In this document: in pieces, positions 25,935 to 33,406 of the stretch
How positions within the stretch are numbered: the stretch's first letter is position 1
Layout of the letters: each line of letters begins with the position of its first letter
Origin: Flavobacteriales bacterium
Lineage (GTDB): Bacteria; Bacteroidota; Bacteroidia; Flavobacteriales_D; Crocinitomicaceae
DNA length: 50,360 nt
Assembly (NCBI GenBank): GCA_015665275.1
Contig: JADFAL010000084.1
Coordinates: 1-50,360 of the forward strand
Direction of reading: 5' to 3'
Position numbers and translations under genes: made by a program
The notes under the pieces: generated by a model
Database searches by the model: none
Told to the model about the DNA's origin: nothing
The model's input: the letters and a program-made list of their open reading frames with translations, nothing else

Positions 25935-27020
25935 ATGCCACTCAACCATACTTCTAATCGCTGCATTCAAACCGCCGCAGCTTGTTTCTTTCTACTCTTT
26001 TTATCGTCAACTGCCTTGGGGCAACGGGTTAAAAATGAAACCATCGAATACAATTACTTGCAACTTCCTTCTGAACCTTTGGATGCAACAGTGAAAAATT
26101 ACCAATCGAAGGTTACACAAAACTACCTCGCAGACAACGCTGAAAAACAGGCCAAATACGATGAAGAAATGGCAACTGCTCAAGCGAACTTTGAACAAGA
26201 AGAGGCCGAATATCCAGCTTTGGTCGCAGCCGCAGAACAGAAGTACGAAGAAGAGATGAAAGCATGGAAAGAAAAGTCCATCGCCGACAAAGTGATTGAG
26301 AAAAAAATCCTGGAAGAGGACAATCGACCGGTGATGCAGTCACCTCCAGTACCGTTTCTTCAACACGTTCAGGAACCCAAATTACAACGAGAATACGATG
26401 CTGAAGCGCTTGCCTCTACGTATCTTGTTTTGGACGGATTCAATGACGCAGCAGACAACACAGTAACTATTGAAGTGGTGATGTACGGCTTCGAATCCAC
26501 AAATCCGAGAGTAGTTTCGGAAGTGAAGAACATTTTGAAAGACGGACAAACGCGTAAAGTAACATACTACCATATTGAATATACCTACCGTCACACAATG
26601 ACCGTAACAGTTAATAATCCCGATGGTTCGGGACGCTTCAAATTGGCTCCTTCGGAATTGAACAACTATACGAAGTACGAAACCAAAGCTTCTACTACGC
26701 GTCCCGCACTGAACCACGATGCACTAATCACGATGCACGAAGAAGAGATCATTCAAAACAACCTAGAGTTCATTCGAAACCTGATCAACGACAAAATGGG
26801 ATTCAAAAATCAGCCACGTTCGGTTGAATTGTATTTCATTAATGACAAAAAAGGAGAGTACGCAGACATTACTGAAGGATACAATTTGATGACTTCTGGT
26901 TTGAACGCAGTTTTTGAAGAACCAGAAAACGCGAAAGACCTTGCAGAAGGACTTGTAATCGATTGGGATCTTTCGGGAATTCCGTGGGAAACAACCATGC
27001 CGTTGCCAAGAACTCAGTAA
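25935..27020 (+). CDS. Exported coiled-coil protein of unknown function
   Basis: 361 residues. A signal peptide with a long n-region ends near residue 29 (STALGQ). A glutamate/alanine-rich coiled coil follows (about 62-118), then a proline-containing hinge (QSPPVPF) and a beta/helix C-terminal part (about 135-361) with a strand-rich segment VTIEVVMYGFES and KVTYYHIEYTYRHTMTVTV. There is no T9SS tail, lipobox or later membrane segment, so it is probably periplasmic or outer-membrane associated. I do not recognise the family. The start at 25935 is chosen because it gives the complete signal peptide. Confidence 0.75.
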   Translation: MPLNHTSNRCIQTAAACFFLLFLSSTALGQRVKNETIEYNYLQLPSEPLDATVKNYQSKVTQNYLADNAEKQAKYDEEMATAQANFEQEEAEYPALVAAAEQKYEEEMKAWKEKSIADKVIEKKILEEDNRPVMQSPPVPFLQHVQEPKLQREYDAEALASTYLVLDGFNDAADNTVTIEVVMYGFESTNPRVVSEVKNILKDGQTRKVTYYHIEYTYRHTMTVTVNNPDGSGRFKLAPSELNNYTKYETKASTTRPALNHDALITMHEEEIIQNNLEFIRNLINDKMGFKNQPRSVELYFINDKKGEYADITEGYNLMTSGLNAVFEEPENAKDLAEGLVIDWDLSGIPWETTMPLPRTQ

Positions 27021-27137: not shown

Positions 27138-30100
27138 ATGAAAACAACTCGACTTACCATTCTATTGGTGTTCCTCGGGACAATGCTACCGTATTGTTCT
27201 GACGCTCAGAACCATTCTATTTCAAGAAAATGGAATAATATTATCCTCGAAGCGATTCGAAATGACTTCGCTAGACCAACGGTTCACGCCAGAAATCTGT
27301 ACCACCATTCCATCATCTCTTACGATGCTTGGGCGGCTTACGATCCGTCAAGAAATCGGGTCTTCCTTGGACAAACACACTACGGCTATACGTGTCCTTT
27401 CGATACGTTAATTATTCCCGGAAATGTCGAGCAAGCCAGAATAGAAACCATTTCATACGCTTCTTACCGATTTTTGGAAAACCGATACAACGGATCCCCG
27501 GATTTTGCAGCTACCATGTCCTTGGCAAATTTACTCATGAGCGATCTAGGACTGGATCCCACCTATACTTCCACAGATTACATAAACGAAGGTCCATCAG
27601 CCTTAGGAAATTACTTGGCGCAACAAATTCAATTGTATGGCTTAACAGACGGCTCGAACGAAGCGGGCGGATTCGAAAATCAATACTACGCACAATTGAA
27701 TCCACCTTTGGAGATGTCCACGGCCGGAAACCCCGACATTCAAGACCCAAATCATTGGCAACCGCTTTCCTTGGATATTCTTATCGATCAATCAGGAAAC
27801 TTAATAACCGAAACACAACCGCACCTTTCTCCGGAATGGGGCGAAGTAAATCCATTCGCGATGGACACCGCGTCTGCCGTGGAAATTAGTCGAGATGGAA
27901 TGACTTTCAATGTGTACTTCGATACTATGCAACCTGCATATTTGACTTTGGGAGACTCTTCCGACTGGGATTCGTTTTACAAATGGAATCACACCTTAGT
28001 AAGCGTTTGGCAATCACATTTGGATCCGAACGATGGAGTGATGTGGGATATCTCTCCGGCATCCATCGGTAACAACCTTTGGTATCCGGCACCCAATGAT
28101 TCAATGGCCTATGCTTCCTTTTACGATTTGGTGAACGGTGGAGATCCTGGAGTTGGACATGCGATCAATCCCGAAACAGGAATGCCATATACACCGCAAA
28201 TGGTGCCACGTGCTGATTACGCCCGTGTTTTAGCAGAATTCTGGGCCGATGGAATTGATTCGGAAACGCCTCCAGGACATTGGTATGAAATCTATCATTA
28301 TGTGACAGATCAACCTTCATTCGTGCGTCAATGGAAAGGCATTGGGCCGATTTTGGACCCCTTAGAATTCGATGTGAAAGCGCACCTTGCACTTGGTGGA
28401 ACGCTTCACGATGCCGCAATTGCTGCGTGGAGTTTGAAAGGATATTACGATTATTTGCGTCCGGTTTCCGCGATACGTTACATGGCCGATCAAGGGCAAA
28501 GCTCTGATACGAACGAATTGAATTACGATCCAAACGGGATTCCATTGATGCCGGGCTACGTTGAAGTAGTTCAGCTCGGAGATACGTTAGCCGGACAGTG
28601 GAACGAACACGTCGGGAAAATCAAATTATTTACCTGGAAAGGACATGCATACATTAACGATCCGCAAGTAGATATTGCCGGAGTTGGATGGATTTTGGCC
28701 GAAGAATGGTGGCCGTATCAACGTCCTACCTTCGTAACACCGCCTTTTGCAGGATTTGTCTCTGGACACTCAACCTTCTCTCGTGCCGCTGCACATACAA
28801 TGGAGTTCATGACTGGATCAGCGTTCTTCCCTGGAGGAATGGGAGAATTTATTGCTCCAATGAACGAATTCTTGCAATTTGAGGAAGGACCAAGCGATAC
28901 AATTCGTTTGCAATGGGCCACGTACATGGATGCTTCTGATCAATGCAGTTTGTCTCGAATTTGGGGAGGAATTCACCCACCAATCGATGACATTCCAGGA
29001 CGAATGATGGGGGATGTGATTGGACCACAGGCCTCGCTCATGGCAGATTCTATCTTCGCAATAAATGAAGCGGCATTAACATTTGCAACAACTACAGACA
29101 GCCTTATTACGCAGGTTGACATGGGAAATAGTTTTGATCTCAACTTCGGATTTAGCGTACCGATGGATACTTCCGTAATTCCGAATCTTATACTTATCAC
29201 TCCAACATTAGCTACGGCCATTGCACAGCAAGGATATTATTGGATCGATTCTATGGAATTGGTCATTGTGATGGATGCCTTGACAAGTTCGATTGAAATT
29301 TGGGATGCCGATTTGAAACTGAACAACCTGTTAACAGGAACAGCGGTCAACTTGCCTGATTATACCTTTAAAAACCTGTTCTTGGTAGATACGAAAAGTC
29401 CTTTGGTAAGCAGTTATCAAAGTAACTTAACCGTGTTGAACGATGCCAGTACGGCACAAGCGCTGTCTATAAGTTTGATCCTTGATGAACCCTGTGATAC
29501 ATCGATCGCGCTGTCAATTGAGTTCAGCGGAACAAATTATCTCAACCCAACTTTGGTATTGCAGGGTGGAAATTCCTCTTGGCAAGACGATACAACATAT
29601 GTTGCACTATTTGATATTATTGATTTCGACGAAACAGTGAACAATATTACCATGAGTGTTTGGACAGGAACAGATGCTCAAGGAAATCTCATGGATTCTG
29701 TTGGATTGGCAGCACCATTTGAAATTGACACGGAAAACCCAACCATTATTTCGGTAATTTCTACCGAAACCTTGATTAGTCAGGCAGATTTGGCAAGCCC
29801 GCAGTTTACGGTAGACGTAACATTTAGCGAAGTAATGGATACATCTTTGACTCCTGTTTTAACCTTCATGGATCAAGGAACTCCTTACACTTCCCTTTCG
29901 CAGAATATGACACAAACAATATGGTTGGATGAATTTACGGTTCAATCTGAGTTTTTCATTTTTACAAACACCAACGACCTCATCTCTTTGGATTTACAGG
30001 TATCGAACGTAACGGATGACAAAACTAACCTGCTGGTAGACTCGCTTGCCACTGTAGTTCTTTGGAGCGATATGAAATCTCCAGAAGTAGTAAGTCGTGT

Positions 30101-31001
30101 CGCAAACAAACCGATCATTAGTGATAGTGTGGTTGGCCCAATGGAATATTACGTGGACCTCTCTTTCAGTGAAGCCATGGACACAACGGTTGTTCCTTTT
30201 GTTTCTTTAAATGCGGCGGTTTCCATTAACAGTGATGTTCAATACAATGTCCCTGAAAGTGCTTATTTGGATTCGTTTACCTACCGTGCCTATTTCCAAG
30301 TAGTAGATCTTGGAACGGAAGTAGACCCGGTGCACATTACTGTTGATTTCGGAGAAGATTTTGCAGGAAACAGTCAGCTCTTAGATGATTTCCAAAACTT
30401 CACAACGCTTGATACCAAGAACCCATCCGTTATTAGTTTAACGGCAAACGATTACATTTTGGATGCGTGGGGGCAAAATTTCGATGTTCTCGCCATTTAT
30501 GATGAACCAATGCGAACGGATATCTATCCGCAAATGACATTCTCACCTTTAGTTCCAGTTCCATTACCGAAAGAAGATTCCGCATGGCTGAACGGCACAA
30601 CGCACGAACTGTATTACGAATTGCTGGGGGTTCCGAGTCAAACAACCATCTTTGACATATCGCTTACAGAAGGCGTTGATCTTGCAGGAAACCTTCAGAA
30701 TCCAATAGCTGCAACTTCTTTCTTCCAACTGGATCCGCTTCTCGGAATTGAACACTTGGAAAATGGACAAGCCATCATTTACCCAACGGTAATTGGAAAC
30801 GGAGAAAACCTTACGATTTTGAACTTGCCAGAAGAAAACAACGAATATCGATTCAACATCGTAAATACACTAGGACAAAAGGTGGATGAAATCTCCTTCC
30901 ATAGAAATGGAAGCAAATGGGTTTCCACACCAATAAATGTTGCCACAGGAATGTACTATTTGAACTCTGAACAACTCCAATTCAAAATCATGGTTAAATG
31001 A
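27138..31001 (+). CDS. T9SS-secreted vanadium haloperoxidase/PAP2-type enzyme with Ig-like repeats
   Basis: 1287 residues. A signal peptide ends near residue 23. The catalytic domain (about 25-640) has the full acid phosphatase/vanadium haloperoxidase triad: Kx6RP (Lys434, Arg441), VSGHSTFS (Ser542-His544) and SRx5Hx3D (Arg607, His613, Asp617). Then follow about five Ig-like repeats of about 113 residues (about 640-1195), marked by D-T/M-K/E-S/N-P at about 751, 864, 978 and 1092. The end (about 1210-1287) is a type A T9SS sorting domain with a gene-typical IIYPTV start and GMYYLN. It should be secreted and surface-attached or released. The reaction, halide oxidation or phosphate ester hydrolysis, cannot be decided by sequence; the long spacing between the first two motifs favours haloperoxidase. 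Its stop overlaps the next start by four bases. Confidence 0.9.
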   Translation: MKTTRLTILLVFLGTMLPYCSDAQNHSISRKWNNIILEAIRNDFARPTVHARNLYHHSIISYDAWAAYDPSRNRVFLGQTHYGYTCPFDTLIIPGNVEQARIETISYASYRFLENRYNGSPDFAATMSLANLLMSDLGLDPTYTSTDYINEGPSALGNYLAQQIQLYGLTDGSNEAGGFENQYYAQLNPPLEMSTAGNPDIQDPNHWQPLSLDILIDQSGNLITETQPHLSPEWGEVNPFAMDTASAVEISRDGMTFNVYFDTMQPAYLTLGDSSDWDSFYKWNHTLVSVWQSHLDPNDGVMWDISPASIGNNLWYPAPNDSMAYASFYDLVNGGDPGVGHAINPETGMPYTPQMVPRADYARVLAEFWADGIDSETPPGHWYEIYHYVTDQPSFVRQWKGIGPILDPLEFDVKAHLALGGTLHDAAIAAWSLKGYYDYLRPVSAIRYMADQGQSSDTNELNYDPNGIPLMPGYVEVVQLGDTLAGQWNEHVGKIKLFTWKGHAYINDPQVDIAGVGWILAEEWWPYQRPTFVTPPFAGFVSGHSTFSRAAAHTMEFMTGSAFFPGGMGEFIAPMNEFLQFEEGPSDTIRLQWATYMDASDQCSLSRIWGGIHPPIDDIPGRMMGDVIGPQASLMADSIFAINEAALTFATTTDSLITQVDMGNSFDLNFGFSVPMDTSVIPNLILITPTLATAIAQQGYYWIDSMELVIVMDALTSSIEIWDADLKLNNLLTGTAVNLPDYTFKNLFLVDTKSPLVSSYQSNLTVLNDASTAQALSISLILDEPCDTSIALSIEFSGTNYLNPTLVLQGGNSSWQDDTTYVALFDIIDFDETVNNITMSVWTGTDAQGNLMDSVGLAAPFEIDTENPTIISVISTETLISQADLASPQFTVDVTFSEVMDTSLTPVLTFMDQGTPYTSLSQNMTQTIWLDEFTVQSEFFIFTNTNDLISLDLQVSNVTDDKTNLLVDSLATVVLWSDMKSPEVVSRVANKPIISDSVVGPMEYYVDLSFSEAMDTTVVPFVSLNAAVSINSDVQYNVPESAYLDSFTYRAYFQVVDLGTEVDPVHITVDFGEDFAGNSQLLDDFQNFTTLDTKNPSVISLTANDYILDAWGQNFDVLAIYDEPMRTDIYPQMTFSPLVPVPLPKEDSAWLNGTTHELYYELLGVPSQTTIFDISLTEGVDLAGNLQNPIAATSFFQLDPLLGIEHLENGQAIIYPTVIGNGENLTILNLPEENNEYRFNIVNTLGQKVDEISFHRNGSKWVSTPINVATGMYYLNSEQLQFKIMVK

Positions 31002-33406
31002 GGTTGATCATTGCACTCTCTGTATTGATCTCGTTTACTTCAATGGGTCAAACCTTCACGGATATCGCTGCGGCTCAAAACGTGACTTCAGTTCAGTATG
31101 CTCCACAGCATTACGCCAACGGAATGTCGTTCTATGATTTTGACGAAGATGGATGGGATGATCTTACCTACCCGATGAATAATGACTCCATCGCTTTCTA
31201 CAGAAATGTGAACGGAAATTTTGTTCAAATACCGTCTATGGTGTACGCTCCGGGAGCCTTACGTCAGATGTGCTGGGTTGATTACGACGATGACGGAGAT
31301 TTGGACTTTTGCGTAACCTTTGATGATATCGGAATTCGCTTGTACCAAAACGATGGTGCTTTCAACATGACTGAAGTTACCGACGCCGCTAATTTAGCTA
31401 TCACTCCATTTACAGGATATGGTTTTTCTTTTGCTGATCCCGATGCAGATGGAGATTTGGACCTATACGTCGCGATCTATGAATCTTCCGCCAGTACTAC
31501 TTCTCCCATTCCCAATTTGTTTTACGAAAACCTTGGAAATGGGACCTTTCAGGAAGTTTCAGCAGCTTGGGGAATTGATGACGGATTGAATACTTCATTC
31601 CAACCTGTTTGGTTTGATTTTGACAATGATTTGGATCTGGATTTACACTTGATCAATGACCGACCGGCGCACGTAGATGCCTTTTACGTGAATGACGGAT
31701 CTACGGTACTTACGAATCAGGCGAGCACCATGGGAATTTTAAATCAATGGATGAGCCCTATGAGCCTGAGTGTAGCGGATTATGATAACGATGGATATCA
31801 GGATATTTTCAAAACGGACATTGCTACCGGATTGCCCTTCAATGGCATCTACGATTATTACAAACTCTTCCGAAATCAAAATGGAAGCTTCTTTCAGGAT
31901 GTGGCTGGACCTTTAGGCCTCGAAACCATCAACTTTGGATGGGGATCTGTTTGGGTGGATTATAATAACGATGGTTACGAGGATTTGTACGTTGCAACGG
32001 GGGATATTGACTCGCTACTTACCGTGAAGACATCTTTGTTGTTTAAAAACGACGGTGGTACCGGATTTGTAAACGAAACGGACTCTATTCTATCGAATGT
32101 CTACAACGTGGCGTATTGTCCTGTCAAAGGCGACATTGATAACGATGGCTTTTACGACTTGGTAGTGGTAAATCATGGCATTGCTCCTAGTGTGCTGTCA
32201 AATAGCGGTAACAAGAATCATTATATCAAAGTAACTCCGGTTGGAATTCAGTCGAACAAACAAGCCATTGGAACCGTTTTCAAAGTATACGCTGGCGGGA
32301 TGTGTCAAACACAAACCGTTTTCTGCGGCAGCGACCTCTGTGCACAACATTCCCAACACAAAATTTTCGGTACTGGAAACGCATTGATTGTTGATTCCCT
32401 CGTGGCCTATTTCCCAAGTGGAATTGTAACGAAAATGTACAACCTGCCCGTTGATTCAAGCTACGTCGTTGAGGAGAAAGTAACCATCGGGTTGAATTTC
32501 ATTCCAGGACAAGGAGCGTTCACCGTTTGTGATGGAGATTCGGCAGAGATTGGGGTGCCGGGACTTTACAATTACCAATGGAACACCGGAGAAACTACTT
32601 CGCACATAACCGTTACATCCTCCGGAACTTATTCTTTCGAAGCTGAAAATGCCACGGGAGATACCCTGTACATCTCAGATCCTGAATTCGTTTATTTCGA
32701 ACCGTCTCTTAACGCCATTTCAATCGTGACTCAGCCGCCATGTGGAGATGACAGTTCGGGCGTAATCCAACTCCTTCCTACCCAATCACAATTGGTGGAT
32801 TCCATCCTTTGGTCGAATGGTGAACTTGGAAATATGATTGATTCGCTTTCGCCGGGAATGTATACGTATACGCTCGTTTCAATCAACGGATGCTTGAGCA
32901 CGGATTCTGTGGAGATAGTAGGAACGCCATCCTTTAATGTTCAACCTTTTACAACATCGGTAACAGATCAATCACTTGGCTCGGTAACCTTCAATATTTG
33001 GGGAGGATCAGCGCCGTTTGAATTCTACATGGATACCGCGCAAGTTGGACAAACGATCAACAATTTGGCGGCTGGCACTTATGAGGTAACCGTGATTGAT
33101 GCAGCTGGCTGCGAGGTCATTGTTTCGTTCACTATCAACGATGAATCATCTGCGAGTTTGAGCGAATTGAACGAAAACGAACTGAATGCCTTCTTCTCAG
33201 ATGGAACGTGTTTCCTATGTGCTGAAAAATCGTTGACAGGAAGTACCATTTCCATAATCGACATGACAGGTAAGGAAGTTCTGAATTGGACTTGGACCGA
33301 AAGCGATGCATGTACACAGCGTTCTTCAAATCTAACTGAAGGATTCTATCAAGTTCAGATTACGCACCAAGGAATTACTTCTGTGAATAATGTGATTGTA
33401 CGATAA
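30998..33406 (+). CDS. T9SS-secreted FG-GAP/VCBS and ASPIC/UnbV protein (CRTAC1-like)
   Basis: 802 residues. A signal peptide ends near residue 17 (SMGQ). About seven FG-GAP-like repeats carry calcium-type DxDxDG loops (DFDEDGWDD, DYDDDGDLD, DPDADGDLD, DYDNDGYQD, DYNNDGYED, DIDNDGFYD), forming a propeller. An ASPIC/UnbV domain follows (about 407-495; HYIKVTP, GTVFKVYAGG, LVAYFPSG), then a SprB-like repeat region (about 560-715) and a type A T9SS sorting domain (about 725-802). ATGA overlap with the haloperoxidase-like gene indicates coupled translation, so the two exported products probably act together. Two close cysteines in the tail (CFLC) are unusual. The precise role, adhesion or enzyme scaffold, is unknown. 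Confidence 0.9.
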   Translation: MRLIIALSVLISFTSMGQTFTDIAAAQNVTSVQYAPQHYANGMSFYDFDEDGWDDLTYPMNNDSIAFYRNVNGNFVQIPSMVYAPGALRQMCWVDYDDDGDLDFCVTFDDIGIRLYQNDGAFNMTEVTDAANLAITPFTGYGFSFADPDADGDLDLYVAIYESSASTTSPIPNLFYENLGNGTFQEVSAAWGIDDGLNTSFQPVWFDFDNDLDLDLHLINDRPAHVDAFYVNDGSTVLTNQASTMGILNQWMSPMSLSVADYDNDGYQDIFKTDIATGLPFNGIYDYYKLFRNQNGSFFQDVAGPLGLETINFGWGSVWVDYNNDGYEDLYVATGDIDSLLTVKTSLLFKNDGGTGFVNETDSILSNVYNVAYCPVKGDIDNDGFYDLVVVNHGIAPSVLSNSGNKNHYIKVTPVGIQSNKQAIGTVFKVYAGGMCQTQTVFCGSDLCAQHSQHKIFGTGNALIVDSLVAYFPSGIVTKMYNLPVDSSYVVEEKVTIGLNFIPGQGAFTVCDGDSAEIGVPGLYNYQWNTGETTSHITVTSSGTYSFEAENATGDTLYISDPEFVYFEPSLNAISIVTQPPCGDDSSGVIQLLPTQSQLVDSILWSNGELGNMIDSLSPGMYTYTLVSINGCLSTDSVEIVGTPSFNVQPFTTSVTDQSLGSVTFNIWGGSAPFEFYMDTAQVGQTINNLAAGTYEVTVIDAAGCEVIVSFTINDESSASLSELNENELNAFFSDGTCFLCAEKSLTGSTISIIDMTGKEVLNWTWTESDACTQRSSNLTEGFYQVQITHQGITSVNNVIVR

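Follow-up and report, generated by a model that had tools for sequence, protein, structure and literature searches.

The locus and its two products

The window analysed here, 50,360 nucleotides of a Flavobacteriales genome (contig JADFAL010000084.1), carries two overlapping genes, which encode a large protein with a vanadium haloperoxidase fold (the enzyme) and an FG-GAP propeller protein (the partner). Their features are collected in Table 1; the open reading frames (ORFs) are mechanical calls of 100 amino acids (aa) or more, not annotations. The original prediction placed the start of the partner four bases inside the enzyme gene and reported intact Kx6RP, SGHS and SRx5Hx3D motifs in the enzyme, and both statements hold. 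A scan for promoters and terminators gave a number of sites not above that in shuffled sequences.

Table 1. Features of the enzyme and partner genes, in positions of the window
Feature	Position	Strand	Remarks
Enzyme ORF	27138-31001	+	1287 aa; predicted vanadium-haloperoxidase fold and five Ig-like units
Partner ORF	30998-33406	+	802 aa; FG-GAP propeller, seven calcium-type loops, ASPIC/UnbV domain, T9SS tail
ATGA overlap, start codon of partner and stop codon of enzyme	30998..31001	+	four bases, read directly
Enzyme catalytic region, residues 1-640, including N-terminal signal-like stretch	27138..29057	+	fold; PF21167 at residues 61-209
W431-x2-K434-x6-R441-P442 motif, holding the Lys and Arg of the vanadate site and a Trp three residues ahead of the Lys	28428..28463	+	
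S542-G543-H544-S545 motif	28761..28772	+	homologue alignment
S606-R607-x5-H613-x3-D617 motif	28953..28988	+	homologue alignment
Five Ig-like units, enzyme residues 641-1197	29058..30728	+	shuffle tests
Enzyme C-terminal sorting tail, T9SS type A-like	30777..30998	+	alone under curated cut-off
UnbV_ASPIC domain, partner residues 423-489	32264..32464	+	Pfam, 29.8 bits (cut-off 23.4)
Partner T9SS type A sorting domain, residues 747-801	33236..33400	+	TIGR04183, 32.8 bits (cut-off 23)

The partner matches FG-GAP_3 in six stretches (89.6 bits), followed by UnbV_ASPIC, both over the curated Pfam cut-offs, and its seven loops are of the DxDxDGxxD type. Only one solved structure is related at E values up to 1: 9etn, the animal protein cartilage acidic protein 1 (E 3e-6). 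To our knowledge, the role of ASPIC/UnbV propellers in bacteria is open.

Downstream of the catalytic region, the enzyme contains the five repeats that had been predicted, at residues 641-755, 756-868, 869-982, 983-1096 and 1097-1197. All ten pairwise alignments of the units score 3.5-8.7 standard deviations above 200 letter shuffles. A BLASTP self-comparison of the region (E up to 1) returned the full self-match alone and no repeat, and Pfam (E up to 0.1) gave no family; the term Ig-like is therefore used as a description only.

Both proteins had been predicted to end in sorting tails of the type IX secretion system (T9SS). This is borne out for the partner, which exceeds the TIGR04183 cut-off of NCBIfam. 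The enzyme tail falls just below it, with 16.6 bits for the whole protein and 20.4 bits for the last 150 aa. Against the Pfam model Por_Secre_tail (cut-off 27), both remain under the threshold (partner 26.4, enzyme 13.8). Among the enzyme tails scanned in the window's clade, 21 of 23 match TIGR04183 at E≤0.01. The window's genome encodes SprA together with GldK, GldL, GldM and GldN, and the T9SS is therefore present.

Coupling to the propeller across relatives

On the enzyme tree, the window sits in a clade of 26 rows with a support of 97. Three of these rows end at a contig edge, and in 21 of the 23 readable loci the partner lies downstream, on the enzyme's strand and within 409 bases. One clade partner is cut by a contig end, with 196 aa seen (L076), and another has one in-frame TGA (L044). 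In the wider family, an FG-GAP protein is linked to 62 of the 147 readable genes; it is fused in 35 cases, directly downstream in 22 and directly upstream in five. Over all rows the linked share is 62/172. The coupling is real, not universal.

These counts rest on enzymes from 119 relatives, 395 class members and 395 phylum members (overlapping draws) and from 80 named loci, for which the neighbourhoods were fetched. The named loci are the best 80 of at least 568 confirmed matches, and the sample therefore leans towards the window. A minimum of 560 aligned residues was required, giving 181 rows and, after merging of near-duplicates, 172 distinct ones. Weak or partial matches under about 450 bits from the relatives and class draws were left out, as were two partial copies from the relatives (G094:C36, 507 bits; G118:C49, 465 bits); L237 and L238 lie outside the analysed loci. 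In a first count, the partner-type gene was more distant or lay on the opposite strand in seven rows (labelled 'NEAR'), and 17 rows fell at contig ends. The stricter count reported here is tighter on contig ends and enters the 'NEAR' rows as none or end, with 25 of the 172 rows not readable; among the latter is the clade member L051, owing to its short upstream flank. Fused rows were kept whatever their flank length, which slightly raises the linked share, and L048_5831, whose neighbour is a fused enzyme in its own right, was counted as 'none' instead of 'down'. All trees were built with FastTree. Long branches meet in the propeller tree, and the number of propeller lineages is thus approximate.

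The surroundings of the pair are far less constant. In 19 partner-holding loci, 42 of the 184 other ORFs have a homologue in another locus, and no flanking ORF recurs in more than 4 of the 18 other loci. The pair therefore stays while its surroundings change. Since these loci were picked for holding a partner, only the non-conservation of the flanks is informative in this set; the coupling figure from loci not picked in this way is the 21/23 given above. Chance adjacency can be dismissed, with three UnbV genes in a genome of 3.64 Mb and a pair that persists while its flanks change. Just upstream of the enzyme, at 25935-27020 on the forward strand, lies a secreted-looking ORF of 361 aa with no family over cut-off; it falls outside the set of flanking genes seen again in at least three other loci.

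Enzyme and propeller form a single chain in 35 of the 172 homologues, which adds to the support for the coupling. On the enzyme tree, these fused proteins separate into five groups. One has 20 rows and includes Winogradskyella, Flavivirga, Seonamhaeicola, Marinoscillum and others; the remaining four are L181, L191 and L208, with Allomuricauda; a set of nine rows around L054; L086 by itself; and L065 with L068. At least six changes of coupling state are needed on this tree. Among six fused proteins searched against Pfam, FG-GAP_3 is found in six, UnbV_ASPIC and DUF6851 in five each, and Por_Secre_tail in three. In the propeller tree, the five groups are dispersed. The set around L054 stands apart and takes in the second propellers of L057 and L058; the first propellers of these two, like L086, are placed with background proteins. 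The Winogradskyella set groups with lone enzyme-adjacent genes (upstream in L123, L127, L145 and L203; downstream in L129), L065 and L068 stand apart with one locus protein, and the Allomuricauda set is near the window's partners. Because the fusion-group propellers belong to different lineages, a single ancestral coupling looks unlikely from these trees. The fused protein of L086 (7337-12481, 1714 aa) carries PKD domains and a dockerin type I in place of a T9SS tail match.

A comparison within the window's genus illustrates how the two genes may change together. In G020 (L035) and G025 (L036) the pair lies between the same larger neighbours as in the window. Between the window and G025, the upstream CocE-like and GNAT-like products are 88% and 78% identical and the downstream paaZ-like product 97% (names by reading of the sequences), while the small ORFs between the GNAT-like gene and the enzyme differ. 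The catalytic domains are 85% identical. In 60-residue segments, from the one ending at residue 960 to the one ending at 1260, identity is 78, 62, 50, 40, 47 and 27%; it is 27-50% from about residue 1020 on, and the partner propeller is about 50% identical throughout. The G020 copy holds 77-93% in the same enzyme part and in the propeller, and less in the C-terminal part of the partner.

These identities are most simply explained by a joint replacement, in one lineage, of the partner along with the tail and distal Ig units of the enzyme. Such a replacement would be expected if the partner works with the distal part of the enzyme; a recombination tract over adjacent sequence would look the same. 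A donor of the G025 block was not found. Alternatively, the block may reflect fast divergence of the distal units and partner with no recombinational replacement. Ig units, tails and partners are indeed more variable than catalytic domains across the clade, and the first 180 enzyme residues, at 65-70% identity to G025, are also less alike. However, the fall from 78 to 50% takes only about 120 residues (segments ending at 960, 1020 and 1080), and identity is back to 97% in the next gene, while G020 keeps its high values in distal enzyme and propeller. We therefore consider fast divergence the less likely account, with a minor but appreciable chance.

Because many relatives keep the genes together or fused, the enzyme and its partner probably act jointly on the cell surface. 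Whether they also bind each other directly is evenly balanced. Several observations weigh against such joint action. Homologues that regularly lack the partner, which the original prediction regarded as damaging, are common family-wide (85 of the 147 readable ones have no FG-GAP protein fused or adjacent); this does not apply to the window's clade, even if two of its members, L040 and L051, have none despite a readable downstream flank. Members of the partner family are also encoded apart from the enzyme, two of them in the window's genome, which excludes that the family is exclusive to the enzyme, and one of these (on contig C6), with its G025 counterpart, nests in the clade of the window's partners in the propeller tree. 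Finally, the AlphaFold2 model of L191, a naturally fused protein of 1110 residues (30 sequences), shows two good domains with no confident relative placement, with a predicted template modelling score (pTM) of 0.58 and a linker whose predicted local distance difference test score (pLDDT) is below 50. This poorly defined arrangement fits a flexible tether better than a rigid complex. Of the earlier proposal, the coupling of a haloperoxidase-type surface enzyme with a calcium-loop propeller is supported; a stable complex of the two is not.

It is conceivable that the coupling concerns expression only, with two independent T9SS cargoes that are useful in one setting, for example on algal or particle surfaces, and make no contact. 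Conserved gene order alone would fit this, as do the undocked fusion model and the majority of readable wider-family members that have no partner. On the other hand, single-chain fusion in five enzyme groups, together with distal Ig units and a partner that differ jointly in one relative, speak against independent cargoes, and we consider this explanation improbable.

Other family members were observed in different settings. The C6 paralogue (817 aa, FG-GAP/UnbV with a T9SS tail) lies in L230 (5903-16764) after gldK-gldL-gldM-gldN and a second gldN, and before a second gldM. Two gldM copies per contig are frequent in the window's genus; among the 119 relatives, only G000, G020 and G025 were seen to have a close copy of the paralogue next to gldM. 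G072 (C137), G079 (C55) and G083 (C39) have tandem arrays of four or five partner-family FG-GAP/UnbV proteins away from the enzyme. The window's genome also holds a second family enzyme (L034:8765-10753, contig C30; 662 aa, 43% identity), which stops after the catalytic domain, has no partner nearby and groups with other short forms in a clade of its own, of nine rows. In L042, L043, L045, L047 and L155, haloperoxidase-type enzymes of about 1300 and 1060 aa form tandem pairs with no adjacent propeller, and the copies split into two separate tree groups.

Fold and active site of the enzyme

In Pfam, the enzyme matches DUF6851 (PF21167) with 31.4 bits (cut-off 27) and, at the borderline, VCPO_2nd with 27 bits (cut-off 27; 29 residues matched). 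The PAP2 signature stays under its curated cut-off (17.6 versus 27.2 bits). An AlphaFold2 model of residues 1-640, built from 48 sequences, has a mean pLDDT of 85.9 and a pTM of 0.88. Its nearest solved folds are NapH1, XhnO11, NapH3, the Zobellia iodoperoxidase and the Curvularia chloroperoxidase, with Z scores of 21.5 to 29.6. NapH1 (3w35) fits best, with a Z of 29.6 and a root-mean-square deviation of 2.7 over 433 residues, followed by NapH3 (28.6), the Zobellia enzyme (4usz, 26.8) and the Curvularia enzyme (1vni, 21.9). On this model, the enzyme is a vanadium-haloperoxidase-fold protein with a whole-domain match to the bacterial chloroperoxidase NapH1.

Residues W431, K434, R441, F537, S542, G543 and H544 are identical in all 172 homologues, and R607, H613 and D617 in all 171 that reach them, one row ending at a contig edge. 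The loss of vanadate-binding residues, which would have spoken against the original prediction, is thus not seen. We take the Lys, Arg, Ser-Gly-His, Arg and His residues to have their usual vanadate-site roles, and F537 is presumably the counterpart of the halide-site Phe of the fungal enzyme. W431 lies three residues before K434. According to excerpts of one study, chlorinating fungal and brown-algal enzymes (Curvularia, Ascophyllum) have a Trp three residues before the catalytic Lys, whereas red-algal and cyanobacterial bromoperoxidases have an Arg there (PMC11871015). The sequence at this position points to a chloroperoxidase-like site, without settling the activity.

Oxidation of the haloperoxidase type is likely, and some results count against it. 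NapH3, a haloperoxidase homologue that carries out another reaction according to its title, is among the nearest folds and also has a Trp three before the Lys, and a Trp introduced at that position in the A. marina enzyme barely altered chlorination, as far as the excerpts report (PMC11871015). W431 is therefore not decisive. The algal and cyanobacterial vanadium bromoperoxidases score below the acid phosphatases in fold comparison, with a Z of at most 11.3. As NapH3 illustrates, a vanadium haloperoxidase fold does not guarantee halide oxidation.

The enzyme could instead be a phosphatase of the cell surface, or some other member of the PAP2/haloperoxidase superfamily that does not halogenate, like NapH3. 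Besides the closeness of NapH3, the fold-match list includes 3bb0, a chloroperoxidase caught in dephosphorylation, and acid phosphatases fit the core better than the algal bromoperoxidases do. However, their match is partial (about 200 of the 640 residues, Z at most 12.9), whereas NapH1, the Zobellia iodoperoxidase and the Curvularia chloroperoxidase fit the whole domain, and W431 and F537 are invariant along with the vanadate site. The original prediction left halogenating and phosphate-releasing activities side by side; judged by the modelled fold, the latter is less likely, and we consider a non-halogenating enzyme more improbable still than coupling by expression only.

Proposed function and comparison with known systems

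We propose that the two genes make one surface system, in which a surface-held haloperoxidase has the propeller as its docking or targeting module, and assign to this proposal a probability of about 0.5. The enzyme would be a vanadium-dependent haloperoxidase of the bacterial chloroperoxidase type, exported by the T9SS, with its active domain carried by the five Ig-like units. Hydrogen peroxide would be used to oxidise halide to short-lived hypohalous acid outside the cell. The propeller, exported in step with the enzyme, would bind either the distal Ig and tail part of the enzyme or a common surface or target, and so fix the site of oxidant production. A targeting role for the propeller is somewhat more doubtful than contact between the two proteins. 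Excerpts of PMC9296495 report that vIPO3, another Zobellia vanadium iodoperoxidase, is upregulated with Ascophyllum relative to alginate; defence or detoxification on algae is therefore one possible setting.

A more daring proposal, which we regard as speculative and rather unlikely, is that the FG-GAP/UnbV propeller is the exchangeable aiming part of an oxidant generator on the cell surface. While the catalytic domain stays, the partner would move between lineages in one block with the distal Ig units and the sorting tail, and other lineages would have re-made the coupling by fusing different FG-GAP propellers. Bacteria could then aim hypohalous acid at chosen surfaces by swapping the binding protein. 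If this were true, it would give both the enzyme and the ASPIC/UnbV families a testable function and offer a way to study where reactive halogen is released by bacteria.

Taken singly, the fold of the enzyme, the family of the propeller and export by the T9SS are already known. As far as we could find, the conserved and repeatedly fused combination of enzyme and propeller, in a Bacteroidota-centred branch of the haloperoxidase fold, appears to be new. No description of the pair was found among the listed matches in openly licensed PMC papers, which is no proof of absence, and the same literature gave no paper on UnbV with enediyne. The terms 'FG-GAP' and 'fusion' are both absent from the main text, in the part available, of a recent halogenase-mining preprint (PMC12871659), and in the available part of PMC12188728 haloperoxidase is named in the reference list only.

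Among known systems, the bacterial vanadium-dependent chloroperoxidase NapH1 (3w35/3w36) resembles the enzyme in its fold across residues 25-640, at 20% identity; the window's enzyme adds the Ig-like units, the T9SS-type tail and the propeller partner. The vanadium iodoperoxidase of Zobellia galactanivorans (4cit/4usz) is likewise similar in fold at 20% identity, and its solved chain of 415 residues comprises the catalytic region only. Cartilage acidic protein 1, of the ASPIC/UnbV family, aligns with partner residues 171-336, whereas the partner is bacterial, T9SS-tailed and encoded with a haloperoxidase-type enzyme. The closest counterparts are the single-chain FG-GAP/UnbV-haloperoxidases found here in Winogradskyella, Allomuricauda and others, which consist of the same two parts; those of Winogradskyella (L177) and Allomuricauda (L191) carry a Por_Secre_tail over the cut-off. 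They differ in order, with an N-terminal propeller followed by the enzyme, whereas the window encodes two chains, the enzyme first and then its partner.

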